IMG/VR virus record: IMGVR_UViG_3300025890_000138
Coordinates: 1 to 25,857 of that record
DNA: 25,857 nt
DNA from: a virus
Reading direction: 5' to 3' (one strand)
Below are positions 11,255 through 25,857 of the stretch, piece after piece. A program made the position numbers and the translations under genes. The notes beneath the pieces are model-generated. The model saw only the letters and a list, made by a program, of their open reading frames with translations, made no database searches and had not been told where the DNA came from. Position 1 is the stretch's first letter. Each line of letters starts with the position of its first letter.

Positions 11255-11451
11255 TAGAACACTCCGACAAACCTCTGAGGTCGGGCTATCGGACTAAACC
11301 TTTTATTAACCGTACCGCCAGAAGAATATTTACGTTTACCCGCTTTGCTTAAAGCAATAGCAACCGCCTGTTTTTGCGGTTTTCCAGCAGCCATTTCTGT
11401 CTTGATGTTTTGACTGACAACACCTTGTGATTTGCCTGATTTTAAGGGCAT
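11254..11451 (-). CDS. Small basic phage protein of the PQKQAVAIALS family (65 aa)
   Basis: A 65-residue protein: MPLKSGKSQGVVSQNIKTEM, then AAGKPQKQAVAIALSKAGKR, then a basic, Gly-rich end. The pattern PLKSGKS...ISxNIxxxMxxGKPQKQAVAIALSKA is a very common short phage protein, usually near portal or scaffold genes, with unknown function. The helix KQAVAIALSKA probably folds over the first one to form a tiny two-helix domain. The start overlaps the portal stop as TAATG, with GGAGGGG just upstream. The GTG of the next small ORF overlaps its own TAG. Confidence 0.87.
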   Translation of the reverse strand: MPLKSGKSQGVVSQNIKTEMAAGKPQKQAVAIALSKAGKRKYSSGGTVNKRFSPIARPQRFVGVF

Positions 11452-13934
11452 TATCCCCTCCGTTGCATAGCCATTTGCTGGATCTCAGCATTAACAGCAA
11501 TCCGCTCTCTGTTAACCGCATTGCGGTCATCGGCAATCTCTTCCTGCAAGTCCATGCGAGCGTTGTCTAAACGATCACGCTGCTCGACCTTGTTCATCTC
11601 TAACTCAAGTTTAGCAGCATCATTCACGGCATCCTGCCCTTGTTTCTGCTTACGCAACTCTAGCTCCTGCATCCGAATAGCTACTAACGGATCAGGCTCG
11701 TTCGGGTTCTCAGGCATTAAACGAGCCATTACGTCCGCCATAATCTTCTGTTGGTACAGTACGACTAGGTTCTCAACTTCCTGTTGATTCTGCAAGTCTT
11801 GCTGCAATTGTTTTTCATACTCTTGCACCGATCCTTGGCTGACCGCGCCTACATTTGCCATCATCTTAGCCCCGCTTAACGCTTGCTTGACCTCGTCCAT
11901 AGCCTGCTTCTTCGCAAGCATACTGACGTGCTCCTGAATATGAGACATAAACGATCCCATGATCTGTGGAGACGTTGCCACGATAGGCGTCTTCATAAAC
12001 ATAATGTGGATCTCGATGTGTACTTCGTGATTCTGCTCTGGGAATGCGCGTAGAATTTCGCCCATAAGAGCTTTGGCATTCTCCATGGCGGGATCCATCG
12101 GTTGAGGTTCTTGGGGTGGGGGCAAGATCTCATCAATGTTCTGGACCTCAAGCGCTTGGTACATCCTACGGTATGCAGCGTGAAGGTTGTGCATCTGTGG
12201 ATTAGACTGAGCCAGTTGGAGTTGAGTCTGAGCCAGCGTAACGCGTTGCGCCATGGAGAATATGTTCGGATCACTGACAGGCAAGACATCAATCTTGTCG
12301 TCGAAATCCTGTTGCTTAATCGCAGCCGAACCACCCGCAACCTCATATGGGTATTCAGGAGGCATGTTTTCTTTAAAAATGCGAGCTAATAAACGAAACT
12401 CAGTCTTTTGCGAATAGTGCAAACGTTTGTGGATCGCGGACATAACCTTCATGCCACGTTCCAACATCGCTACTGTCGTACCAACAGGCGTTTCTCCGCT
12501 CATGTTGTTTATTTGCTGATCAGCGATAGAAATGAACCTACGTCCATCCTCGATCAAACCACCCAGCAGTTGCGCCAAAGTCCCCGAAGGTTCTTTGTAT
12601 GGCAATGGGATTAATGAGTCCCGTATGTTGCCACCGGGCGCATCTATGTCCCGCCATTCCCCGGGTTGCAAAGGCTCATCATCGTTCCGAACCCGAACCC
12701 CTCTCGCCTTGAATCCTGCTGGGAGATTCGCCAAAGTTCCCGCATCAATAAGTTGACGTAGAATACTTGTAGCGGCACGACCAAGGCCCCCTATCATGTG
12801 GATCAAACCAAAACCGTAAAACCCTAGACCCGGTAGAAACTTGTAATGCACAAAATACGGACGCTTCTTACGAAGTGGATCCATCTCTGCATAGTTCCTG
12901 CGGATAGCTAAGATCTGATTACTGTCTTTGTCTATCGTCACAATATAAGGGAGCTTGATACCCGTGGGCTCGCCCATGGGATCTGCATCCTCAAAACCCT
13001 CAATGTCGAGATCGCAGTGCATCTCTAAAATAGTTCTGATATCGTCTGTATAGCCCCGTGAGATGCCTTGTAGTTTATTTACCTTCTGATCCACCTCATC
13101 TTCGTCTGGGTCTCCAGAGCCTGATAAATCAACGTCCATGTACGCACCAGATACTTGCATCTTACGCACATCGTTATCGGTCATCTTTAAAACGTGTGTC
13201 ACACGAGGAGCCGTCGCCAAATCAGTAGCAGAATACGACACCACTAAATCTTGTGCAGGTAAAAACTCTGCTACAGCGCGACCTTTCAACGGATCAAAAT
13301 ACACTTTCTTAAAGGTCGAACCAGACAAGGGAAGGTAAAACAGCATCTGATCCATGCCCGGATCATACTCTTCCATCTCTTCCATGATCTGGTAGTTCAT
13401 GTAATGCTTGACGCGCTGGGCCTGATCCTCGCGCTTCTGGTCCTGCAAACCAATAACTTGAGTGCGAACTGGACCTCCAGCAGGGAGCATTTCCTTGTAC
13501 GCCTGCGCTTGGAACTGCGTAACGCTTTCAGTAATTAACGGGTGCGTAACCCCACTAGCGCCTTCAAACGGCTGAGACCGCTCTTCAGAGTTGATACCAA
13601 GAAGATCAAGACCCTTTGTATACGTCTCTTCCCACTCGCTACGAGAGTCGTAATCCTCTTCATAGAGGCCCACAAGCTCGCTACTAATTTCCCCAAGAAC
13701 GCCATCATCTAAAAACTCCGCAAGGTTAGCGTCGTGATCAATTATCTCAACCTCAACGTCCTGATCTTCCATTTCAGACATGGCTTGCACAATCGCTCCG
13801 CCTTGTCCGTCGTCAATTACCTCGGCACCCCCAGTGAAATCTACTGGGCTGGGCACGTCCACTTCGACATCAGGAAGACCCTCTGTGCTGTCTAAGTCTA
13901 GGCCCGGTACAACCATGTTTGGTGGTAATGCCAT
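11451..13934 (-). CDS. Portal protein, P22-like
   Basis: An 827-residue protein with an acidic N-terminus (about 1-80) and a Tyr/Glu/Asp-rich entry (ELVGLYEEDYDSRSEWEETY). RSQPFEGASGVTHPLITESV (about 118-137) lies in the helical part, and FLPAQDLVVSYSATDLATAP in the wing-like region. FLPGLGFYGFGLIHMIGGLG (about 369-388) and ISIADQQINNMSGETPVGTT (about 471-490), followed by a MLERGMKVMSAIHKRLHYSQ helix, lead to the core. A long Gln/Glu/Arg-rich coiled coil (about 690-827) probably forms a barrel. In P22-like phages the portal is a dodecamer at one vertex, with the barrel extending into the capsid. It directly follows the terminase (TGATG overlap). AGTGTCGGGAG-like sequence within the terminase 3' end (GGGAG, 8 bases before ATG) serves as ribosome site. 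Confidence 0.93.
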   Translation of the reverse strand: MALPPNMVVPGLDLDSTEGLPDVEVDVPSPVDFTGGAEVIDDGQGGAIVQAMSEMEDQDVEVEIIDHDANLAEFLDDGVLGEISSELVGLYEEDYDSRSEWEETYTKGLDLLGINSEERSQPFEGASGVTHPLITESVTQFQAQAYKEMLPAGGPVRTQVIGLQDQKREDQAQRVKHYMNYQIMEEMEEYDPGMDQMLFYLPLSGSTFKKVYFDPLKGRAVAEFLPAQDLVVSYSATDLATAPRVTHVLKMTDNDVRKMQVSGAYMDVDLSGSGDPDEDEVDQKVNKLQGISRGYTDDIRTILEMHCDLDIEGFEDADPMGEPTGIKLPYIVTIDKDSNQILAIRRNYAEMDPLRKKRPYFVHYKFLPGLGFYGFGLIHMIGGLGRAATSILRQLIDAGTLANLPAGFKARGVRVRNDDEPLQPGEWRDIDAPGGNIRDSLIPLPYKEPSGTLAQLLGGLIEDGRRFISIADQQINNMSGETPVGTTVAMLERGMKVMSAIHKRLHYSQKTEFRLLARIFKENMPPEYPYEVAGGSAAIKQQDFDDKIDVLPVSDPNIFSMAQRVTLAQTQLQLAQSNPQMHNLHAAYRRMYQALEVQNIDEILPPPQEPQPMDPAMENAKALMGEILRAFPEQNHEVHIEIHIMFMKTPIVATSPQIMGSFMSHIQEHVSMLAKKQAMDEVKQALSGAKMMANVGAVSQGSVQEYEKQLQQDLQNQQEVENLVVLYQQKIMADVMARLMPENPNEPDPLVAIRMQELELRKQKQGQDAVNDAAKLELEMNKVEQRDRLDNARMDLQEEIADDRNAVNRERIAVNAEIQQMAMQRRG

Positions 13935-13949
13935 CAGTAATACTCCCGT
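13931..13949. repeat. 19-bp direct repeat, copy 1 (terminase/portal junction)
   Basis: On the minus strand ACGGGAGTATTACTGATGG covers the last codons of terminase, its TGA, the portal ribosome site and the portal ATG. The identical 19 bases occur again at 23096-23114, where they form the ribosome site and ATG of the giant gene. Chance identity of 19 bases within this window is very unlikely. Confidence 0.9.
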
Positions 13950-15400
13950 TTACGAGGTGCGTACAAGCTATCCTCTTCCTCTTCTCCCCGCAAAGAAAGG
14001 AAACCTCCTTGCCGAAAGCGCATCAGTGCCAACGTCATGCTATCACAAAAGTCATCGTGATCGCCATTAGGAAATGAAACTACTTCTTCCACCACCTCGT
14101 CCGCAAATTTTTCATGCATAGGTGCCCACACTATTCCCGCTTCAAACAACGGAGCGACCATGTGCATTCTCGTTACCTTATCATTTCCCTTGCCCGGTGA
14201 AAAGCCCAGCGCTGGAATACCGCGAAGCCGCAACTCGTCAATGAGCGGTGTGCCCGTCGCTTTCGCTTCGACCACAACCATGTCTGGCTCCCAGTATTCG
14301 TGCTCTTCATAGGCAACCTCCTTTAGTTCAGGAAAGTTCCAACGCCCCCTACGGGCGTCCATAAGTATAATGTTATCAGGGCCACCGTCGTCAGGCGTAA
14401 ATACCCCCCAAGTAGTTATGGCAGAATAGTCCGCAGTTTCTTTTTTAGAGAACGCCGTGTCGTATGCCTGCACAATATACTTGATTGCGGGTATCTGCTC
14501 TCGATCCCAGTCTTGCCACCACTCACGCTTTACAATCGCACTCTCAGATGCCGTGGGGTTCTGCTGCCACTGAGCGTTCCACTTGCCCACAGGCAAAGAG
14601 GCTTTGATCGACAGTAGCGCCGACTTATCCCAAAACTCAGGCCACAACGGCTTGTCGCTGGGTAGAATTGCAGGGAACTCAACAACCTCCCACTGATCCG
14701 CCATTACATCGCCGCCTTGTGCAGCCATCAAACGACCAGTCAAATCTTTCTTACCCCAGCGCGTCATAACTAAGATAATCGCCCCACCCGGCTGCAAACG
14801 CTGTCGAGGACCAGATGTGTACCACTCATACGCATTGTCAAACGCACTTTCACTCAAGGCGTCCTGTTCCGAGTGAGGGTCATCAATTATAAAAAGATCC
14901 GCACCACGGCCCGTAACAGCCGCGCCAACACCCGCAGCAAAGTATTCACCGCCCTTGTCCGTCTGCCATTTGCCAGCCCCCTTGTTATCTTCCTTCAAGT
15001 TCGTATCTGGAAAGATTTCTTTGTACGCGGGATCGTCGATTAAGTCCCGAACCTTACGACCAAACCTGACCGCAAGTTCCGTGTTGTGCGTAGCCTGAAT
15101 AATCTTGAGCTTTGGGTTGCGACCCAGAAACCACGCAGGCATCAAAAAACTAGCAAACTCTGACTTAGAGTGACGCGGGGGCATATTAATTATAAGCCGC
15201 TTGAGTTCCCCTCGTGCAACGCGTTCAAGTTTTTCGGAGATCACCCGATGGTGACGACCCTCGATAAAATTCTCATACACATGATGCGCAAACGGCATGA
15301 ACTTTTCCGACGCTACTTCGCGCAAGTCCAGCTTCTTCTTCGCTTCCGTAAGCGATAGAATTTCTTTTAACGCTTCTTCCGGAAGAGCCTGTAGGTTCAT
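13934..15400 (-). CDS. terL: Terminase large subunit (packaging ATPase-nuclease)
   Basis: A 488-residue terminase. The ATPase part has MPPRHSKSEFASFL (residues 73-86, a degenerate P-loop in which PPRHSKSE is the nucleotide-binding motif), the Walker B-type LFIIDDPHS (169-177) and VMTRWGKKDLTGRL (211-224), the coupling motif. The nuclease part has QAYDTAFSKK (Asp 313), VVVEAKATGTPLIDE (Glu 378) and NGDHDDFCDSMTLALMRF (Asp 449-450), the acidic triad of an RNase H-like fold. The enzyme translocates DNA into the procapsid through the portal and cuts concatemers. The start overlaps the preceding TGA (ATGA); no strong ribosome site is seen. A small terminase is not recognisable in the window. Confidence 0.96.
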   Translation of the reverse strand: MNLQALPEEALKEILSLTEAKKKLDLREVASEKFMPFAHHVYENFIEGRHHRVISEKLERVARGELKRLIINMPPRHSKSEFASFLMPAWFLGRNPKLKIIQATHNTELAVRFGRKVRDLIDDPAYKEIFPDTNLKEDNKGAGKWQTDKGGEYFAAGVGAAVTGRGADLFIIDDPHSEQDALSESAFDNAYEWYTSGPRQRLQPGGAIILVMTRWGKKDLTGRLMAAQGGDVMADQWEVVEFPAILPSDKPLWPEFWDKSALLSIKASLPVGKWNAQWQQNPTASESAIVKREWWQDWDREQIPAIKYIVQAYDTAFSKKETADYSAITTWGVFTPDDGGPDNIILMDARRGRWNFPELKEVAYEEHEYWEPDMVVVEAKATGTPLIDELRLRGIPALGFSPGKGNDKVTRMHMVAPLFEAGIVWAPMHEKFADEVVEEVVSFPNGDHDDFCDSMTLALMRFRQGGFLSLRGEEEEDSLYAPRKREYY

Positions 15401-22400: not shown

Positions 22401-23099
22401 ACCACCCTCAATAACAACATCCAACGATGATCCGGGTTTCGAGGTGCCAGAATCAATAGCCGCGAAACTCGGAACCGTGTAGTTACCACCACTAGGCGCA
22501 GGCTCACTGCCAATGTACTGCTTGTCTAAATCCCCGCGCTCGTTACTCGTAATGATCCAATTCGACGGGTTATTCCAAGACTCCTGACGACCATACTGAA
22601 CATCCGCGTTGTCACGAGCCGACTTCGTACCATGAGGATTACCAAACTGATCGTAATAGTTGCCGTCAACCGTAACCGCATTAGTCGGGGTCTTCTCGTC
22701 AAACACACTCTGAGGCAACCCAGCATACACATTACTCGTGTCCCCAGAAGTGGTGCCCGGAATAGTCAAAGTCTGACCAACCGAAATGTTGTTCACGTCC
22801 GATAACGCTATCCCACTCGCATTCGCTATCGCCGCAACCGTCGTACCATTGTCCAAGGCTATCTGACCAAGAGTGTTCCCACTCGAAACCTTGTAACTCG
22901 TGTCCGCTGGCGCATTGTAGTTGTCCTCGAACCCTTTGTCCGCCTGACCCGCCGCATAATTAGACGCCGCCGCCGAACCTTCGTTCCGAGCTATCGTCGC
23001 AGCAGTTCGGTCTATGTAGTCTTGGTCCTTCTCTTTAGCACCAGTGCCCATTGCGATATCGTTAGCTACGCTTTCGAACAAATCAGAAAGCCATCCCAT
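16440..23099 (-). CDS. Giant LysM / degenerate ART-like / coiled-coil protein (2219 aa)
   Basis: Order of parts: charged N-terminus; LysM at about residues 68-114 (YKVSSGNTLGQIALDN...GQTLTIP); three ~85-residue repeats (~145-376); a Ca-loop-like DENKDGVPDMEI (498-509); Gly/Ala-rich hydrophobic segments (~729-770 and 869-894) around AEGGQEGLNQTL; an ADP-ribosyltransferase-like part (~975-1094: DPAIMYRDRGAITFSANP, VYLDVQNPLTIES, SGYDGVID); two FGVS repeats (~1120-1200); about 800 residues of heptad coiled coil (~1214-2017); a Pro/Gln-rich C-terminus with (QA)4. No signal peptide, nuclease or protease motif is evident. ATG 23099 follows GGGAG with 8 bases of spacing; a TTG six codons earlier lacks one. 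Possibly a virion-internal entry/effector protein or fibre; position before terL does not suit an ordinary tape measure. Confidence 0.9.
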   Translation of the reverse strand: MGWLSDLFESVANDIAMGTGAKEKDQDYIDRTAATIARNEGSAAASNYAAGQADKGFEDNYNAPADTSYKVSSGNTLGQIALDNGTTVAAIANASGIALSDVNNISVGQTLTIPGTTSGDTSNVYAGLPQSVFDEKTPTNAVTVDGNYYDQFGNPHGTKSARDNADVQYGRQESWNNPSNWIITSNERGDLDKQYIGSEPAPSGGNYTVPSFAAIDSGTSKPGSSLDVVIEGGKAFVADKAGQKFDNIEEAAASDIVINRKVASYEDPSNYRIDTNQQDDLVRIYVGDEGLPPISYSTPSWESVDTAQESASDKDQYYDLTFVDGERKVLDSYGNAFDTPAEATSNDVKIVDRSNPENYEVVTTNVDGDVEPVAGAGTAIKVGNMITEARYTGEYGDPILTRNLVTGSNVFEAPSITEVLNATTYKDTPYSVEYDDESGLMSVFAPDGQRISSVPGTSVDDNMMRQSLTVLEAGYTPRTVEFEAQVDALMFGGEMFLDENKDGVPDMEISEEVQALSPMNFTAAADNKAAFAAASQVGEAPAPRTPGNRAGVVIEDPSGRTLGDSATDFAKGIGTGVVNTIASGATGMGAVQKADAAATVEALVQTLTDAGDIKSKYQSVMNDLMSDENIARGLISAMDPVEYLENFEVEVEVAPGRSVTMNASMLQGRIQNEQQRIINATEQHNAAMEAAGITVDETYWGQLADTIKEKGSELVGKPGAEDSFAYQVGNGFGSALAFIALSAPAVLAGPAAAPALAATFAATGGALVNAGSMYDEAYAFTLKQTDPATGQLYTPEKADAIALQGTGYATLIGTLEGIPVARALGFVPPQFGSQVAEFFTDIIAEGGQEGLNQTLNNLTAQGIWDPNRGMFDGTVDAAVMGGIVGGAISGGARMTKSMVDGLKANGYSDTEIAMIEESDGGIVTGEMSPERIGALLDRGYTIEQISGVFGNLTGTNTINAMTDAPQMTIEGMAANSAFQDTVIKTGAGDPAIMYRDRGAITFSANPSKDAVPVYLDVQNPLTIESIGTPKGKETLTEVLGSSRADALISEFQQNGNVTLTGADVQKVAESGYDGVIDNDSGKVYVADNSSVYSVTDPETTTEETVVATKPEWKTQLDEAFYLTGSIDMDLAKQVEQEFGVSPFEINEHYQQITASDAAWEKRLLGDYLTKGYIDLDTMLKAEEDFGVSMQDLGNYAEYLDSDLSVYNDAMFADQIKEVRDLTGSQTSLQSEVTSLTNELSAVEADLIEMTSNRDLDSEAAATAIAKQEQLSGELSAKKEELAGVEKTLGETQTALEAETKTRATAEQNVTSLTSDLGSANSTITDLQSSLDSANDKVSTLNSTIEGLNTDVGTAEAATEAADKVVTKLNEDIKFKNEEITGLAADVKAAEDAVLAKQDELDTASASVETSAETITSLNSEIKALEDAKTGLDGDLSTAIGERDSLQGTLDERTKERDTLQESLTSSNTQLEAANKQLTAANTQVTDLTSQKEVLTKEVATLTTELGTANTNLTAALEASGSSAALAENLNTQLQTANSTISSMTTELNETMADVTALEKEIASQKENQTISDADLAAAEASLEAANLEVQTLSDSLGIEEAAKNELQKKLTSAESDLSNLQKSSSKSIESLGLEVDTANATIESLQGQLTTATNDVSSLSNQLEAAQNSQTATAEQKAALAGQLDAAQKEATSLLSDITKLEGQRDTLKADLTAAQSTIGTQETTIGNQAEAITTLTTDLGAANQDVSSLTGQLGTAKESVTALEGQLEAANNSLTATQTEKDTIAANLDTARENARALTQSLSARTKERDNLQVSLNDTKTKLSNTVTLANTLQTNLDASNAEINTLGNQLDTAQANVDSLKETLTDATALQELTDAEKLDLQNDLTTSQNDVQSLTDQLGSRTTERNNIEKQLNETKAELTASTTLTETLQGNLTTAQENILGLESQLGDSQALQQLTEEQRAALEQTLAKEQANAASLETQLGEVTSAFDITQTQLDFAQGATTYINTQLDQNVAEDALVADLVTRGYTADNAQALVNEVQQTRFEQSELARITDARRSAAYVPFGAGPVGGEEDEVTYPDYGPPGTGTVQPQAQAQAQAQQPYQPPATAYQPPPTQPVYEAPRFDPFTRDDATPIAGGPAVELDQFGQPILSFGSTGRPLGSYVTMPTSAGPFNPYEMEMPEAPAFNPQQPVVRPPFPQQPQPVINQGIGGLGRK
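16791..16814. repeat. Hexanucleotide repeat (TGCTTG)x4 in the giant gene
   Basis: Four perfect 6-bp units on the plus strand code (QA)4 near the C-terminus of the giant protein, inside a Pro/Gln-rich region. Such runs can change length by slippage. It is a coding low-complexity tract, not a regulatory array. Confidence 0.85.
17190..17735 (-). repeat. Two degenerate tandem repeats of 98 and 84 residues in the coiled coil
   Basis: Copy 1 (17735-17442) and copy 2 (17441-17190) of the giant gene align without gaps over their first ~64 residues: LSARTKERDNLQVSLNDTK against LGSRTTERNNIEKQLNETK, and LANTLQTNLDASNAEINTL against LTETLQGNLTTAQENILGL. Copy 2 then lacks 14 residues, exactly two heptads. 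This implies the coiled coil grew by duplication and changed length in register. Confidence 0.7.
21975..22667 (-). repeat. Three degenerate ~85-residue repeats in the giant protein
   Basis: Three units share an (E/D)G...DxxGxxF...A...DV...NP(S/E)NYxIxT...DD(L/V) pattern: NNPSNWIITSNERGDLDKQY, YEDPSNYRIDTNQQDDLVRI and RSNPENYEVVTTNVDGDVEP. Each probably forms a small beta domain. They lie between the LysM and the hydrophobic middle. Confidence 0.7.
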
Positions 23100-23114
23100 C
23101 AGTAATACTCCCGT
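23096..23114. repeat. 19-bp direct repeat, copy 2 (start of giant gene)
   Basis: Identical to 13931-13949. Here it supplies GGGAG and the ATG of the giant gene; there the same bases serve the portal gene and end the terminase gene. Confidence 0.9.
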
Positions 23115-23279
23115 CAACCGAATTATGCATGTTTATATCAGCTTTTTTTGAACTTGGCGAGTACGGTTTAGTTTGCAATGAAATTACCCCCGCGATTTTT
23201 AGAGGGGGTAGGGGTCCCAATGGAAAAATACCCGAGTGAATTTACAAAACCAATAATATAGAAGGCCGCAGTTCCCTTG

Positions 23280-23301
23280 CACCCCCCGAAAAAGGGGGGT
23301 G
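23280..23301. other. GC-rich inverted repeat
   Basis: CACCCCCC-GAAAAA-GGGGGGTG is a perfect 8-bp stem with a 6-base loop. Read leftward the loop is TTTTTC and no T-run follows the stem, so it is not a classical terminator in either direction. It overlaps the G-run block. Confidence 0.7.
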
Positions 23302-23317
23302 GGGTCGGGGCGCGGGG
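23294..23317 (+). other. G-quadruplex-type sequence
   Basis: Four G runs of 6, 4, 4 and 4, separated by loops of 1 (T), 2 (TC) and 3 (CGC) bases on the plus strand. This meets the usual definition of a stable parallel quadruplex with at least four tetrads. It lies in the control region between the divergent gene blocks. Confidence 0.75.
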
Positions 23318-23395
23318 CCGCGCCACGCCGCGCTGCGGCGCAGTAACCCCCAGCAATGCTGCGGTGCAGCGGTCAGCAGCTAGCCATTTTATTTT

Positions 23396-23406
23396 ATAAA
23401 ACTTGT
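23396..23406 (+). promoter_or_regulatory. ATAAAACTTGT element, copy 1
   Basis: First of four copies of this 11-mer in the rightward region. It lies 104 bases before the first rightward gene, after a GC-rich block. It could be an A-rich upstream element plus a CTTGT-type -35 box, or a phage-specific site. Confidence 0.6.
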
Positions 23407-23426
23407 AATTAATTGTGTTTTACCTG

Positions 23427-23464
23427 TTGACAATCCCAATTCCATGCCCCATAACTATGTTATG
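23427..23464 (+). promoter_or_regulatory. Sigma70-like promoter with palindromic operator over the -10 box
   Basis: TTGACA (23427-23432), 17 bases, CATAAC (23450-23455; four of six matches to TATAAT). The perfect palindrome CATAAC-TAT-GTTATG (23450-23464) covers the -10 box, where a dimeric repressor would block initiation. It drives rightward transcription toward the gene at 23510. The promoter call is good; the operator role is inferred from position and symmetry. Confidence 0.65.
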
Positions 23465-23488
23465 GCCCTTCACTGGGAGGGGCCAGTG
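23464..23488 (+). other. Two mutually exclusive leader hairpins
   Basis: In the leader of the first rightward gene, GGCCC (23464-23468) can pair with GGGCC (23480-23484), or CACTGG (23471-23476) with CCAGTG (23483-23488). The two cannot form together. They lie 8 bases before the AGAAAGGAAA ribosome site. Confidence 0.5.
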
Positions 23489-23509
23489 TTCAACTAGAAA
23501 GGAAAGAAC

Positions 23510-23743
23510 ATGACAGCCAAAGCAACGCAACTAGGCCGGATCGCTGAGATCGAAGCCCAAATCAAATCGCTTACAAAAGAGCGTGATGAGCTTCGCGCCG
23601 ATAGCGTAGCGTTCGGTTATGCGCGGTGGGAATACACCGTGCGGATGAGCGCCCCGTCGCTGGCATGGTGGAAAGAAAACCGCCCCAGCGTTTGGCATAA
23701 GTATGCCAAGCAAACTCGCGTCAAGAAATTCGTCGCGGTATAA
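23510..23743 (+). CDS. Hypothetical early-region protein (77 aa)
   Basis: A 77-residue protein with a helical N-terminal half (GRIAEIEAQIKSLTKERDEL, residues 9-28, heptad-like) and an aromatic, basic C-terminal half (WEYTVRMSAPSLAWWKENRP, then WHKYAKQTRVKKF). Four Trp in a short stretch and a basic end suggest protein or nucleic-acid binding. I recognise no family. It is the first rightward gene after the sigma70-like promoter. The start follows AGAAAGGAAA (23496-23505), the leader shared by most genes of this block, and a GC hairpin follows the stop. Confidence 0.85.
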   Translation: MTAKATQLGRIAEIEAQIKSLTKERDELRADSVAFGYARWEYTVRMSAPSLAWWKENRPSVWHKYAKQTRVKKFVAV

Positions 23744-23750
23744 CTCAACA

Positions 23751-23766
23751 GGGGGCTGCGGCCCCC
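23751..23766 (+). terminator. GC hairpin after the first rightward gene
   Basis: GGGGGC-TGCG-GCCCCC, a 6-bp perfect stem, lies 7 bases after the TAA. No T-run follows, so it may only slow polymerase or protect mRNA ends rather than terminate. Confidence 0.5.
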
Positions 23767-23791
23767 ACCTCTCAACAAGAAAGGAAATAAC

Positions 23792-24127
23792 ATGGCCTTA
23801 CATTATGACATTAAAGACGTGAAGGCGGACTGGAATGATGACGCCATTTGGCCCATCACAAACGCTTTAATCTGGGGCACCATGTCAGTTGCTATGAATA
23901 GCATCACTGAGAAAGACTGGCGCGAGTTTTACACCCGCTGCCACATGATCGAGACCATTCACGGGGCGTGGTTATTCTATGACCACAAACCACGGTTCAT
24001 CACCCCCGATGACGTTCAGTCCCACATCGGGCTGCACACAAACGCTAGCCAGATGACGAATGCACGGTTCAAAACCAGCATTGATAAGCGGCTGCGACAG
24101 CAGGCTGTTGAGTTGCTGCGTAAATAA
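23792..24127 (+). CDS. Hypothetical protein, aromatic-rich (111 aa)
   Basis: A 111-residue protein with many Trp, Tyr and His: YDIKDVKADWNDDAIWPITN (about residues 5-24), a helical ALIWGTMSVAMNSITEKDWR, then FYTRCHMIETIHGAWLFYD and FITPDDVQSHIGLHTNAS, ending in a basic helix (RFKTSIDKRLRQQAVELLRK). The fold is probably alpha-helical. No family is recognised. The start follows CTCAACAAGAAAGGAAATAAC, the shared leader. Its stop codon overlaps the second ATAAAACTTGT element, so the next promoter-like element sits at its very end. Confidence 0.85.
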   Translation: MALHYDIKDVKADWNDDAIWPITNALIWGTMSVAMNSITEKDWREFYTRCHMIETIHGAWLFYDHKPRFITPDDVQSHIGLHTNASQMTNARFKTSIDKRLRQQAVELLRK

Positions 24128-24134
24128 AACTTGT
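24124..24134 (+). promoter_or_regulatory. ATAAAACTTGT element, copy 2
   Basis: Overlaps the TAA of the gene ending at 24127 and lies 54 bases before the next ATG. A TACAAG with four of six -10 matches follows the CTTGTG at 18-base spacing, inside the next hairpin. Confidence 0.6.
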
Positions 24135-24136
24135 GT

Positions 24137-24163
24137 CCCCCTTGTGCATGGTGTACAAGGGGG
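24137..24163 (+). other. Long leader hairpin
   Basis: CCCCCTTGTGCA-TGG-TGTACAAGGGGG, a 12-bp stem with one G-U pair and a 3-base loop. It lies between the ATAAAACTTGT element and the ribosome site. It could end the upstream transcript or structure the new leader; no T-run follows. Confidence 0.6.
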
Positions 24164-24187
24164 TATCTCAATTAGAAAGGAAAAGAG

Positions 24188-24397
24188 ATGGAAAATTTTG
24201 AACACACATTGCGCAACTTGGTTTGGCAGTTGATTGAAGAAAAAGTCAAAGCTGAGATTGAAAGCGAAGTTAGAGTGCAGCTACACACCAATACTTCAGA
24301 GCAACTCACCTATGAGTCCGATGAGTTCTCAGAGAAAGTTAATGAGTTGATATCGGATTACTTCACCTACAACGTGAGTGTATCCATTGACCACTGA
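24188..24397 (+). CDS. Hypothetical acidic helical protein (69 aa)
   Basis: A 69-residue acidic protein: MENFEHTLRNLVWQLIEEKV, continuing as a charged amphipathic helix, then RVQLHTNTSEQLTYES and FSEKVNELISDYFTYNVSVS. Helix-rich, soluble, pI low; no motif. It follows the shared leader (AGAAAGGAAA at 24174-24183, 4 bases before ATG) and a long hairpin. Its last codons overlap the start of a short membrane ORF in another frame. Function is unknown. Confidence 0.85.
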   Translation: MENFEHTLRNLVWQLIEEKVKAEIESEVRVQLHTNTSEQLTYESDEFSEKVNELISDYFTYNVSVSIDH

Positions 24398-24521
24398 GAT
24401 CAGAAAACAAAACAGGGTCCGGCTTATCGGCTGGGCCCTGTTATTATTTGGCTGGGTGCTGGTGCTGCTAATATTCATCACCGCTATCCAGTGTTTTGCA
24501 ACAGGCTTATGCTTTAACTAA
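24387..24521 (+). CDS. Short single-span membrane ORF (44 aa), overlapping a hairpin
   Basis: From TTG 24387 (or GTG 24378) the frame codes MTTEIRKQNRVRLIG, then a strongly hydrophobic segment (WALLLFGWVLVLLIFITAI), then QCFATGLCFN. A basic residue cluster before the hydrophobic stretch fits a N-in membrane anchor, and the stop at 24519-24521 abuts the next gene's leader, as in tightly packed phage regions. Against it: no ATG, only GTGAG as a weak ribosome site, and overlap with a terminator-like hairpin. Support is composition and position only. Confidence 0.45.
   Translation: MTTEIRKQNRVRLIGWALLLFGWVLVLLIFITAIQCFATGLCFN
24411..24442 (+). terminator. Terminator-like hairpin
   Basis: AACAGGGTCC (24411-24420) pairs with GGGCCCTGTT (24433-24442), 10 bp with one G-U pair and a 12-base loop, followed by ATTATTT. 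It may end the transcript of the gene before it. It lies wholly inside the short membrane ORF at 24387-24521. Confidence 0.55.
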
Positions 24522-24534
24522 GAAAGGAAACAAT

Positions 24535-24819
24535 ATGCCTAGAACAACATTCGGAAAAACTCGCAAGTCAGAGCAGCCATACGCTACATACGTTAGCCCC
24601 TATGGCTGGACATGGAAAGTCTTGAAGACTTACAAGCACTCGAGCGCCGAACGCAGCGACCCCTATGCACGGTGGTTTGTTGCGGCAACGTCACCCCACA
24701 TGCCCGACGGGCAATATGAGATGGGCGATACATACGCCAGCGAAGTGACGCGCAACGGTGCGCTGATCGACGCCGACCCCGCATGGATGGATGAATACGG
24801 CGCACCAGTCATAGGATAA
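24535..24819 (+). CDS. Hypothetical protein (94 aa)
   Basis: A 94-residue protein: MPRTTFGKTRKSEQPYATYV, then PYGWTWKVLKTYKHSSAERS, DPYARWFVAATSPHMPDGQY and EMGDTYASEVTRNGALIDAD. The aromatic, Gly-containing middle (YGWTWKVLKTY, ARWFVAAT) suggests a small beta-rich domain; many phage small proteins with 'YGWxWxVLKxY...PxARWF' are uncharacterised. ATG 24535 is chosen over upstream codons because it follows AGAAAGGAAA by 4 bases. The gene sits in the accessory block between a membrane ORF and a hairpin-rich gap. Function is unknown. Confidence 0.87.
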   Translation: MPRTTFGKTRKSEQPYATYVSPYGWTWKVLKTYKHSSAERSDPYARWFVAATSPHMPDGQYEMGDTYASEVTRNGALIDADPAWMDEYGAPVIG

Positions 24820-24868
24820 CGAACCCCCCGCTCGAGGGATATCGGGCACTTTCCTTTCACTGAGAATG

Positions 24869-24900
24869 ACGGGCCCGGGTGCGAAAGCGCTCGGGCCCGT
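24869..24900 (+). other. Strong hairpin with GNRA tetraloop
   Basis: ACGGGCCCGGGTGC and GCGCTCGGGCCCGT form a 14-bp stem with two G-U pairs, closed by a GAAA loop. It lies 50 bases after the preceding stop and has no T-run. A structured RNA end or mRNA stabiliser is as likely as a terminator. Confidence 0.65.
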
Positions 24901-24902
24901 TG

Positions 24903-24930
24903 GCGCAGGGCGCAGGGCGCAGGGCGCAGG
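24903..24930 (+). repeat. Tandem GCGCAGG repeat, four copies
   Basis: Four perfect 7-bp units directly after the GNRA hairpin. A 23-bp stretch of this block is also present in the second array at 25563-25602, in the same place relative to the ATAAAACTTGT element. Confidence 0.85.
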
Positions 24931-24970
24931 CCCTCGCTTCGCTCGGGAAAATTTGTCAAGCCGCAGGACG

Positions 24971-24991
24971 AAAGTGACGCTACGTCACTTT
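24971..24991. promoter_or_regulatory. Perfect 21-bp palindrome upstream of the third ATAAAACTTGT
   Basis: AAAGTGACG-CTA-CGTCACTTT: 9-bp arms with a 3-base centre, immediately before TGAAATAAAACTTGT. Operator-like symmetry at an upstream position fits a regulator of the promoter element; as RNA it would be a short hairpin with a TTT end. Confidence 0.55.
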
Positions 24992-24994
24992 GAA

Positions 24995-25005
24995 ATAAAA
25001 CTTGT
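24995..25005 (+). promoter_or_regulatory. ATAAAACTTGT element, copy 3
   Basis: Follows the palindrome; then TTGACT and, 17 bases on, AATCAT or nearby TGCAAT as a weak -10. The gene starts at 25076 after the hairpin at 25039-25056. Confidence 0.6.
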
Positions 25006-25038
25006 TGACTGCTTGGTTGCTGTGTGCAATCATGAGTT

Positions 25039-25056
25039 ATAGGCAATCCCGCCTAT
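25039..25056 (+). other. Leader hairpin
   Basis: ATAGGC-AATCCC-GCCTAT, a perfect 6-bp stem, directly before TCTCAATAAGGAAAG. Such a hairpin before the ribosome site is repeated in this block. Confidence 0.6.
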
Positions 25057-25075
25057 CTCAATAAGGAAAGAGACA

Positions 25076-25291
25076 ATGAGAAAATCTTATGTTCAAGAGC
25101 ACACGCTCACAGTTTTGGTTGAGATCGATCTTGGTGAAATCGGCACCATGATCGATAGTCTAAACGAATTAGACACCGAACAAGCCGGATCTTACCGCGT
25201 TCGGGAATTGATCGGCAAGCTGAAAAGCCTACGCCGCGAAACTGCGGATGACGCGCGTCGTGAGTTCGAGCGCTTGGCACAACAATCTTAA
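25076..25291 (+). CDS. Hypothetical helical protein (71 aa)
   Basis: A 71-residue protein starting MRKSYVQEHTLTVLVEIDLG, then MIDSLNELDTEQAGSYRVRE and LIGKLKSLRRETADDARREF. A short beta-strand-like start is followed by charged helices, so a small alpha/beta domain is likely. No family is recognised. Its leader differs from the others (ATAAGGAAAGAGACA instead of AGAAAGGAAA). A strong terminator follows the stop by 8 bases. Confidence 0.85.
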   Translation: MRKSYVQEHTLTVLVEIDLGEIGTMIDSLNELDTEQAGSYRVRELIGKLKSLRRETADDARREFERLAQQS

Positions 25292-25298
25292 TAGGAGG

Positions 25299-25324
25299 CG
25301 GGGGGCTTGGCCCCCCGATTTTTT
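25299..25324 (+). terminator. Intrinsic terminator, also between an SD and the next start codon
   Basis: CGGGGGGC-TTG-GCCCCCCG (25299-25317), an 8-bp stem with a 3-base loop, followed by ATTTTTT (25318-25324): a classical rho-independent terminator. AGGAGG ends at 25298, directly before the stem, and the next ATG starts at 25325, 7 bases after it. Confidence 0.88.
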
Positions 25325-25516
25325 ATGACACATGGATCACCAGCAGATCGCGGCGGGGCCGACGCCTACTACGGCAGACAGATAGACCCCCACTACTGGC
25401 CCGATGGAACATACCACGGGGCGCGGGTCGAGCGGGACAAGATGACCCGCACCCAGATCGAAGAATACTTATCCGCCTACGAAGAACAAGATTTTTTCAA
25501 AGATTGGGGCGACTAA
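25325..25516 (+). CDS. Hypothetical protein (63 aa)
   Basis: A 63-residue polar protein: MTHGSPADRGGADAYYGRQI, then DPHYWPDGTYHGARVERDKM and TRTQIEEYLSAYEEQDFFKD. A Gly-rich, Tyr/Trp-containing first half (GRQIDPHYWPDGTYHG) and a helical acidic C-terminus are visible. The frame ADAYYGR...P.....G is a recurrent phage small-protein feature without known function. Immediately upstream is the T-run of a terminator; AGGAGG lies before that hairpin, so translation could use it when the stem is folded. An upstream TTG (25307) lies inside the hairpin and is unlikely. Confidence 0.7.
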   Translation: MTHGSPADRGGADAYYGRQIDPHYWPDGTYHGARVERDKMTRTQIEEYLSAYEEQDFFKDWGD

Positions 25517-25519
25517 GCT

Positions 25520-25557
25520 GGGGGCTTCGGCCCCCTTATGCTTTCATAAAAGCATAA
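25520..25557 (+). terminator. Double hairpin terminator region
   Basis: First, GGGGGC-TTCG-GCCCCC (25520-25535) with a UUCG loop, 4 bases after the stop; then TTATGCTTT-CATA-AAAGCATAA (25536-25557), a perfect 9-bp AT-rich stem. The first is followed by TTATGCTTT, a modest T tract. Together they look like a strong transcript end. Confidence 0.75.
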
Positions 25558-25562
25558 CACGG

Positions 25563-25602
25563 GGCCGCAGGCCCGCAGGGCGCAGGGCGCAGGCCCGCAG
25601 GC
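25563..25602 (+). repeat. Tandem CGCAGG-based repeat, second array
   Basis: Five CGCAGG units of slightly varied 7-8 bp spacing, sharing a 23-bp identical segment with the array at 24903-24930. It again lies just before an ATAAAACTTGT element. Confidence 0.8.
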
Positions 25603-25610
25603 TACATGAA

Positions 25611-25621
25611 ATAAAACTTGT
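25611..25621 (+). promoter_or_regulatory. ATAAAACTTGT element, copy 4
   Basis: Shares the preceding TGA with copy 3 (TGAAATAAAACTTGT). CTTGTA, 17 bases, TATTCT (four of six -10 matches) fits a weak sigma70 promoter; the gene starts 57 bases later. Confidence 0.62.
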
Positions 25622-25677
25622 AACCGGCGCACAATCTGTTATTCTAAACACGTTCAATTAGAAAGGAAACAAACACC

Positions 25678-25857
25678 ATGAAAAGCGCAATCATCTACAA
25701 CGGGCCTAGCCTCTTGGATGGTCAACCCATTGTCGTCATCGCGACATATTCAAACCGCAACACCAAAACGGGAACGGTCGTGCAAACTTATATATTATGC
25801 CGCGACACAAACCCGCTCGAAGCAAGCAAAACGGGCGCGGATTTCTCTATTTGCGGC
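25678..25857 (+). CDS. Hypothetical protein, partial at right edge
   Basis: The frame is open to the end of the window (60 codons). It begins MKSAIIYNGPSLLDGQPIVV, then IATYSNRNTKTGTVVQTYIL and CRDTNPLEASKTGADFSICG. I recognise GPSxLDGxPIVVIxT...NTKTGxxxQTxIL...PxEAxKTGxDxSxCG as a widespread phage protein, usually continuing with a CPxR-like second Cys pair that would lie beyond the edge; its function is not established. The start follows TCAATTAGAAAGGAAAC, the shared leader, with a longer gap of 8 bases to ATG. A promoter-like ATAAAACTTGT is 57 bases upstream. Confidence 0.82.
   Translation, partial: MKSAIIYNGPSLLDGQPIVVIATYSNRNTKTGTVVQTYILCRDTNPLEASKTGADFSICG

Follow-up and report, generated by a model that had tools for sequence, protein, structure and literature searches.

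The window (the whole 25,857-nt stretch of IMG/VR record IMGVR_UViG_3300025890_000138 analyzed here) is a genome fragment from a marine phage which, judged by its terminase, is related to the HTVC023P-type pelagiphages. Its TerL is 52-60% identical at the amino acid level to those of HTVC027P, HTVC023P and 023Pt_psg01, whereas the window and eight related records have a GC content of 46-51%, against 35-36% in HTVC027P and 023Pt_psg01. A TerL search of bacterial genomes returned one contig of a Maricaulis MAG (78%) and one of a Saprospiraceae MAG (60%); in the examined stretch of the Maricaulis contig nothing matched the early genes. The last part of the window carries rightward transcription units, whose genes and associated features are collected in Table 1.

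The 11-mer ATAAAACTTGT is found in four exact copies, all on the + strand and one per rightward unit, with the ACTTGT of each copy located 59-109 nt from the downstream gene; both the number of copies and their placement upstream of rightward genes, as given in a first-pass annotation of this DNA, were thus reproduced by the window scan. When up to one mismatch was allowed, 5 matches were obtained against 0.64 expected, a number reached by 0/100 shuffles. Copies 3 and 4 have TGAAATAAAACTTGT in common, and P3 and P4 hold identical 14-15-mers. These two are also the only copies preceded by GC arrays; the annotation had recorded arrays ahead of two copies. Arrays of at least 3 units, on the forward strand only, are present in 13/14 P3 orthologues and 31/37 P4 orthologues; the two strands have comparable quadruplex potential (18 and 14 of 37), and the fold z-score averages a modest -1.5 over 19 arrays.

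The hairpin that had been described as part of the repeated block adjoins the 11-mer downstream at copy 2 only, the hairpins of copies 1 and 3 being placed differently and none being seen at copy 4. At P1 the sequence of the palindrome shifts among relatives while its pairing is kept (as read from a listing of 35 distinct relatives), and by eye other hairpins occupy in relatives the place of the one directly upstream of copy 3. An Rfam search of positions 23000-25857 gave no match up to E 1.

Table 1. Features of the region containing the four 11-mer copies (window positions; promoters are candidates)
Feature	Position	Strand	Basis or remark
Copy 1 of ATAAAACTTGT (P1)	23396-23406	+	exact match; ~25 nt upstream of -35
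P1 core promoter: TTGACA (23427-23432), spacer 17 nt, weak -10 CATAAC (23450-23455)	23427-23455	+	sequence; orthologues
P1 palindrome CCATAAC-TAT-GTTATGG over -10	23449-23465	+	listing of 35 distinct relatives
Transcription unit 1: genes 23510-23743 and 23792-24127	23510-24127	+	
Copy 2 of ATAAAACTTGT (P2)	24124-24134	+	exact match; start within last codons of preceding gene
TTGT-N7-TTGT repeat at P2	start 24131	+	sequence
P2 core promoter: -35 TTGTGT, spacer 17 nt, -10 TACAAG	24131-24159	+	orthologue -10 counts
P2 hairpin, contains -35 edge and -10	24133-24166	+	covariation in relatives
Transcription unit 2: genes 24188-24397 and 24535-24819, plus 44-aa membrane-like ORF 24387-24521 (by eye)	24188-24819	+	
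GC array GGCGCAG x4.1 upstream of P3	24902-24930	+	repeat detection
Hairpin AAAGTGACG-CTA-CGTCACTTT directly upstream of copy 3	24971-24991	+	sequence
Copy 3 of ATAAAACTTGT (P3)	24995-25005	+	exact match; final T = first base of -35
P3 core promoter: TTGACT, spacer 17 nt, AATCAT preceded by TG	25005-25033	+	promoter scan; orthologues
P3 leader hairpin ATAGGC-AATCCC-GCCTAT ahead of ribosome-binding site	25039-25056	+	sequence; similar hairpins in relatives
Transcription unit 3: genes 25076-25291 and 25325-25516	25076-25516	+	
GC array CCGCAGGC x5 upstream of P4	25565-25602	+	repeat detection
Copy 4 of ATAAAACTTGT (P4)	25611-25621	+	exact match
P4 core promoter: -35 TTGTAA, spacer 16 nt, -10 TATTCT	25618-25645	+	orthologue -10 counts
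Transcription unit 4: start of 226-aa gene, family phrog_2554, runs off window	25678-25857	+	

Relatives carry the core ACTTG[TC] at the four corresponding boundaries as well. Among non-redundant orthologous upstream regions it was found in 12/19 at P1, 21/26 at P2, 5/15 at P3 and 31/37 at P4, against shuffle means of 1.2-1.9, whereas control boundaries inside operons had it in 0/3 and 0/10; in held-out relatives it was present at P4 in 28/37. TTGAC is found in 17/19 of the P1 and 12/15 of the P3 orthologues. A -10-like hexamer stands at a spacer of 17 in 16/20 motif-bearing P2 orthologues (shuffle maximum 4) and at a spacer of 16-17 in 28/30 P4 orthologues (shuffle maximum 10), and the expected spacing was seen again in held-out relatives (11/13 at P2, 22/28 at P4), so that in relatives both P2 and P4 display the sigma70-type arrangement of a -10 hexamer 16-18 nt from the -35. 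A strict -10 test at spacer 17 gave 0/12 scored relatives for P1, whose -10 is weak in every one of them, and 2/12 for P3. As for the window itself, its P2 -10 TACAAG has no final T and its P4 -10 TATTCT agrees at 4/6 positions; a generic promoter scan reports only P3 among P1-P4, and promoter-like sites in the window are not above shuffles (2 vs 3.0).

The composite of ACTTGY and a -10 gave 12 matches in the early regions of nine records and 9 elsewhere, with 5 in the reversed-sequence control. It is concentrated in the ~2-kb early region, and this confinement fits a set of early-gene promoters, not a genome-wide one. The first-pass annotation had named a lack of enrichment in the rest of the genome as evidence against its proposal, which was seen in part: the motif clusters in the ~2-kb early region and is near background outside it. 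A 15-mer scan of viral contigs returned at least 119 loci, and among the matches listed 3 come from close relatives in which the motif lies at early boundaries; an over-specific genome pattern had 1 match in 17 records. The ACTTGY promoter set was not seen in the named isolates HTVC027P, 023Pt_psg01, CRP-118 and CRP-403.

We consider it quite probable that the four copies belong to host-sigma70-type promoters P1-P4, one per rightward unit, in which TTGT would in addition be a half-site read by a regulator. Occurrence, orthologous conservation, spacing, the 11-bp repeat and covariation are observed; host sigma70 use, the regulator, early timing and the part played by the P2 hairpin are what we infer. 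The promoter role proposed in the first-pass annotation is supported by the conservation and the -35/-10 geometry found in relatives. P1-P4 would be placed where the early arm of a marine phage begins. The 11-mer would consist of an A-rich tract, probably an upstream contact for the alpha subunit of the polymerase, and of CTTGT behind it. In P2 and P4 the -35 hexamer would begin with the TTGT of the 11-mer, the -10 lying 16-17 nt further on; at P3 the last T of the 11-mer would be the first base of the -35 TTGACT, and at P1 the 11-mer stands ~25 nt upstream of TTGACA. The -35/-10 pair at 16-18 nt, the A-rich upstream tract and the site ahead of early units are features alike to those of host sigma70 (RpoD) promoters in phages without their own polymerase, although here the -35 at P2 and P4 is TTGT/TTGC and not TTGACA, there is one promoter per short unit, and the P2 promoter coincides with a hairpin.

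The regulator part of this reading comes from a tandem repeat. When 256 4-mers at 32 lags were ranked jointly in P1, P3 and P4, TTGT at lag 11 was first (0.42/0.53/0.35; next 4-mer 0.08), and it was first again in the held-out sets (0.27/0.44/0.27; next 0.067); the head-to-tail half-sites at 11 bp that mark OmpR/PhoB-type boxes are present in both. The 7-nt spacers inside TTGT-N7-TTGT are of many different sequences. The 11-bp repeat, equal to one helical turn, is shared by three separate promoter families within the clade, and TTGY-N7-TTGY occurs 78 times in 609 kb elsewhere in the genomes (0.13/kb) versus 9 times in 15 kb on the early strand. Within the window it is exact at P2 only, with a lag of 10 at P1, TTGT-N7-TTGG at P3 and none at P4. 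The over-representation of TTGT-N7-TTGT suggests a putative tandem operator; because the 11-mer is kept at varying distances from the -35, and because three independent promoter families repeat TTGT at 11 bp, TTGT may also be the half-site of an operator lying on a single face of the helix and recognized by a regulator of the early promoters. Such a regulator might be encoded by the phage or by the host. The 77-aa first early protein has a predicted structure of a helix plus beta-alpha-alpha-beta (pLDDT 89), and a PDB fold search with this model for a DNA-binding fold gave no match at E <= 0.001.

The consensus of the lambda CII site is TTGC-N6-TTGC, which was found in 0/97 non-redundant sequences. 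TTG-type direct repeats around the -35 are shared with the CII sites, whereas the spacing is 11 here and 10 for CII. The excerpted text of PMC3335776 describes the CII sites as direct repeats straddling the -35. Boxes of the OmpR/PhoB family, such as those of CtrA (PMC9437464) and PhoP (PMC3335776), have, in the excerpts of these papers, the same 4-N7-4 head-to-tail geometry with an 11-bp repeat over the -35, although the half-site here is TTGT and the CtrA consensus is not enriched (3/97 sequences). CtrA boxes TTAA-N7-TTAA, which occur in alphaproteobacterial phages according to the excerpt of PMC9437464, were rejected as a candidate, with 2/19, 0/26, 0/15 and 1/37 at P1-P4 (shuffle maximum 1-2) and none in the window.

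A simpler explanation would be plain sigma70 promoters only, the 11-mer being an A-rich upstream element plus the -35 and the 11-bp spacing of TTGT a by-product of shared ancestry, with no regulator; we find it rather doubtful, though still a serious contender. The core is fully accounted for by the promoter geometry of P2 and P4, a second half-site is missing from P4 of the window, and shuffle contrasts overstate significance because shuffles do not keep relatedness. However, a single combination of 4-mer and lag outranks all others in three promoter families that are not homologous, and does so again in held-out data; the spacer sequences differ widely. The second TTGT at P4 has a -10 at the right distance in 0/18, which argues against this explanation and led us to reject tandem overlapping promoters as the source of the second TTGT.

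The P2 hairpin likely belongs to the 3' end of the message from the preceding unit. Its pairs were counted in 17 of 24 distinct P2 rows, leaving out L269 (coding match), L277, L258 and the window's own row (other stem lengths) and L218, L255 and L271 (same 37 nt); 95.7% of cells were paired, with 22 double changes versus 7.0 in shuffled data (0/500), and slid controls collapse. Among held-out relatives, whose rows are distinct but partly near-identical, 19/19 passed the hairpin test, but the folds of L351 and L417 are weak and 17/19 were counted. Under the preferred reading the P2 promoter would be superposed on a covarying RNA hairpin closing the upstream message, so that one unit would end and the next begin within a single stretch of ~35 bp. 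Alternatively, the palindromes that cover P1 and P2 might be operators of fast-evolving repressors and not RNA hairpins: both include the -10, and their symmetry stays while the sequence differs between lineages. This seems unlikely to us, since at P2 G-U pairs are frequent (7/17 at one pair, 13 cells in total) and stem length varies, as expected for RNA.

It had also been claimed that a whole block is conserved between different genes, possibly as a mobile cassette. With ACTTGT as the anchor, identity among the four cassettes is 0.11-0.37 over 46 nt downstream and 0.19-0.34 over 32 nt upstream, the level of random pairs from the region (0.25, 99th percentile 0.41); within-genome likeness is thus limited to a ~14-nt core and the claim was not confirmed. 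A gapped version of the comparison was useless because random pairs averaged 0.76. Orthologous cassettes (gene <90% aa identity), in contrast, are 0.43-0.63 identical downstream, and the same gene boundaries carry cassettes in relatives. Identical 14-15-mers and similar GC arrays at P3 and P4 would suit the copying of a mobile or duplicated promoter cassette from gene to gene, but cassettes are syntenic with orthologous genes and unlike one another within the genome beyond the core, which makes such copying very improbable. Least credible of all are promoters of a phage-encoded single-subunit RNA polymerase, which the identical word repeated ahead of genes, as in T7-like phages, would favor, since a sigma70 -10 is present at fixed spacing and T7-type polymerase (PF00940) was found in 0/16 related records (mostly fragments, one of 57.9 kb, the window's own record left out) and in neither 023Pt_psg01 nor HTVC027P, the positive control CRP-118 giving 1. 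The phage-specific promoter of the first-pass annotation finds no support in that sense; in the sense of a regulator it is possible.

Within the collection searched, as far as its titles and excerpts go, the 11-mer string matched only papers with unrelated titles, and nothing on the motif was found under phage promoter/hairpin overlap, CII-type repeats or Roseobacter phage promoters. The word "promoter" is absent from the main text of PMC9599517 and PMC12753301; in the excerpt of the latter, on the infection transcriptome of HTVC027P, all early expressed genes are of unknown function and only hypothesised to initiate phage transcription.

For a large, little-studied marine phage clade we would tentatively propose, at not quite even confidence, that early genes are under a tandem TTGT-N7-TTGT operator over the -35 of host-type promoters with a putative regulator, and that unit boundaries are compressed, the -35 and -10 lying on the opposing arms of the hairpin with which the preceding message ends. 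The conserved promoter/operator map would provide candidate start sites for the related marine clade together with a bait sequence for the putative regulator, and the promoter-inside-hairpin layout would offer a clean case for how one short DNA stretch may serve RNA structure and promoter together.

The 11-mer (core ACTTGT) was recovered as four exact matches at the positions given in the first-pass annotation, all on the plus strand, and 5 matches were obtained with up to one mismatch against 0.64 expected. Each copy does stand ahead of a rightward gene, the distance from ACTTGT to the following rightward start being 109, 59, 76 and 62 nt, and the GC arrays described before two of the copies precede copies 3 and 4 only. 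Judging from gene spacing, the copies head four units: 23510 and 23792; 24188 and 24535, with a 44-aa ORF (read by eye) between them; 25076 and 25325; and 25678 onward. The proposed promoters at copies 1 to 4 are termed P1 to P4.

Features of the window and their coordinates
Feature	Position	Strand	Remark
Structural genes	left 23 kb	minus	
Portal	11451-13934	minus	
Terminase large subunit	13934-15400	minus	
Transglycosylase-like gene	left 23 kb	minus	
2225-aa protein	left 23 kb	minus	LysM domain
Direct-repeat block	23177-23262		gap between 2225-aa gene and P1
11-mer copies 1 to 4	23396, 24124, 24995, 25611	plus	
Small rightward genes	right end of window	plus	
First early protein (77 aa)	23510-23743	plus	
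P2 hairpin	24133-24166		longer stem; -10 TACAAG in 3' arm
44-codon ORF	24387-24521		TTG start overlaps preceding stop
GC arrays	24902-24930 and 25565-25602		strand-specific, 7-8-bp units; across the clade only before P3 and P4
SD-hairpin-ATG element	25290-25327		
226-aa gene (phrog_2554)	25678 onward	plus	5' part only

Upstream regions of the orthologues of 23510 (P1), 24535 (P2), 25076 (P3) and 25678 (P4) were collected from related loci (L124-L282) and the window, and thinned to <90% identity; in the window, P2 stands ahead of 24188, one gene earlier. The motif ACTTG[TC] was present in 12/19 (P1), 21/26 (P2), 5/15 (P3) and 31/37 (P4) of these regions, and in 0/3 and 0/10 at within-operon control boundaries. 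Taking as starting point the ACTTG[TC] that comes first within the final 80 nt, and calling -10-like any hexamer with A2, T6 and at least 4/6 matches, we found such a hexamer at spacer 17 in 16/20 P2 sequences and at spacer 16 or 17 in 28/30 P4 sequences, while shuffled downstream stretches gave maxima of 4 (P2) and 10 (P4) over spacers 16-18. TTGAC is the apparent -35 at P1 (17/19) and P3 (12/15); mean match to TATAAT at P3 is highest at spacer 17, and the -10s of P1 and P3 are weak, the strict test being passed by 0/12 and 2/12. The -10 spacing at P2 and P4, together with TTGAC at P1 and P3, places the 11-mer as the predicted -35 itself at P2 and P4; at P3 (ACTTGTTGACT) the 11-mer abuts the -35, and at P1 it lies some 25 nt ahead of it. 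Its A-rich tract would fit a proximal UP element. A held-out set (loci L311-L433, obtained by two more scans with divergent 226-aa relatives and purged of sequences ≥90% similar to the first set) gave ACTTG[TC] in 5/15, 13/18, 7/9 and 28/37 at P1 to P4, with a -10 at spacer 17 in 11/13 (P2) and at 16-17 in 22/28 (P4). Across nine records, the composite of ACTTG[TC] plus -10 had 12 matches in early regions and 9 elsewhere, the reversed-sequence control giving 5.

The first-pass annotation had proposed either a mobile promoter cassette or a phage-specific promoter, on the grounds that a whole block was conserved between different genes. Ungapped comparison anchored on ACTTGT did not bear this out: the window's four cassettes share the A-rich 8 nt (identity 0.62-1.00), but are 0.11-0.37 identical over the 46 nt downstream and 0.19-0.34 over the 32 nt upstream, compared with 0.25 between random pairs. 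In relatives with <90% amino acid identity in the gene concerned, orthologous cassettes are, by contrast, 0.43-0.63 identical downstream. The same gene families follow the cassettes in relatives. Mobility is thus rejected, and by sequence comparison, on which all functional statements here rest, the 11-mer is a real, conserved promoter element.

All 256 4-mers were scanned at lags 4-35 and ranked by their minimum fraction across P1, P3 and P4. TTGT at lag 11 ranked first (0.42, 0.53 and 0.35; next 4-mer 0.08), with many different sequences in the 7-nt spacer, and did so again in the held-out sets (0.27, 0.44 and 0.27; next 0.067). The second TTGT half-site at P4 had a -10 of its own in 0/18. 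In nine records, the density of TTGY-N7-TTGY is 0.60/kb in the early region (early strand) versus 0.13/kb elsewhere. Within the window the exact form is found at P2 only (24131); P1 has TTGT-N6-TTGT, P3 TTGT-N7-TTGG and P4 none. In 8/26 P2 relatives (such as L241 and L229) a second TTGT lies 33 bp, or three turns, past the first, just beyond the -10. Phage promoters are indeed subject to host regulators in hosts of this class, CtrA binding to sites in several alphaproteobacterial phages (PMC9437464). Neither the CtrA consensus (TTAA-N7-TTAA) nor that of CII (TTGC-N6-TTGC) is enriched here (3/97 and 0/97 sequences).

In 23/24 distinct P2 sequences a strong hairpin begins at the -35 TTGT or immediately behind it, and the -10 falls at or within the 3' arm; the exception, L269, is a coding match. 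Of the distinct held-out sequences, 17/19 fold alike. When 17 distinct sequences sharing one length were compared, 95.7% of cells were paired, double-sided changes numbered 22 cells versus 7.0 shuffled (0/500), and the covariation score was 0.375 versus 0.163, falling to ≤0.053 when the partner was slid 1-3 columns. Pairs with a double change (4 vs 2.9; 69/500) and further pair types (10 vs 9.1; 186/500) were unremarkable. RNA is favoured because G-U pairs are frequent (7/17 at one pair), and the hairpin most likely forms in the upstream message, at its 3' end, given its place directly after the previous stop codon and ahead of the expected P2 start. The -10 of P1 is covered by a palindrome that likewise changes in sequence and keeps its pairing in the relatives listed.

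The GC arrays are old and strand-specific: three or more CGCA-type units, confined to the forward strand, precede P3 in 13/14 relatives and P4 in 31/37, versus 0/19 at P1 and 0/26 at P2. The P4 array has a period of 8 (58 intervals) or 7 (25 intervals), its last unit starting a median 21 nt before ACTTG[TC]. The word TTAAC is present in 21/37 P4 upstream regions of relatives (shuffle mean 6.8, maximum 12), in many of them after the -10 and before the ribosome-binding site.

The 25,857-base window, from an IMG/VR virus record, has at least 599 terminase relatives in the viral collection; the closest named phages are 023Pt_psg01 (60.5%), HTVC027P (57.7%) and HTVC023P (52.0%) by terminase, and Roseobacter phages CRP-118 and CRP-403 by the 226-aa gene. 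Homologues of the 226-aa protein (L079:7248-7925 in a related locus) occur in phages of Mycobacterium, Klebsiella, Gordonia and Roseobacter (148 records), and a 490-aa helicase (phrog_62; L079:1313-2782) is encoded beyond the right end of the window, on the opposite strand from the early genes. The first early protein is modelled as a 32-residue helix and, after it, a beta-alpha-alpha-beta unit with the conserved motif APSLAWWKE; a fold search with the model gave no match. The product of the 44-codon ORF, read by eye, would be small, hydrophobic and membrane-like. A search of 16 related records, one of them 57.9 kb long, found no PF00940 polymerase; 023Pt_psg01 and HTVC027P had none either, while CRP-118, the positive control, matched. 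Since the records searched are mostly fragmentary and do not include that of the window itself, absence of such a polymerase is likely rather than proven.

In the SD-hairpin-ATG element, a perfect GC hairpin with a U-tract, shaped like an intrinsic terminator, stands between the ribosome-binding site GGAGG and an ATG that follows directly. The plan recurs with changed stems in 15 of the 17 distinct sequences listed upstream of the gene, and a similar one precedes the 226-aa gene in a sub-lineage without P4 (for example L266, L268, L282, L329, L331); the strict form has 2 matches in 13 records (the window and record G008). Such a hairpin could bring the SD near the AUG while also acting as a terminator. 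The direct-repeat block contains two repeats (AATGAAATTACCCCCG... and AATGGAAAAATACCCG...) and a -10-like CAATAATATAG, and has 28 distinct versions in relatives, at most one per record beyond chance matches; the block could represent another rightward promoter with a site for an activator, or an origin of replication.

Taken as promoters, the 11-mer sites would be a variation on a known type, made more interesting by two features: the repeat at 11 bp and the overlap of promoter and hairpin.
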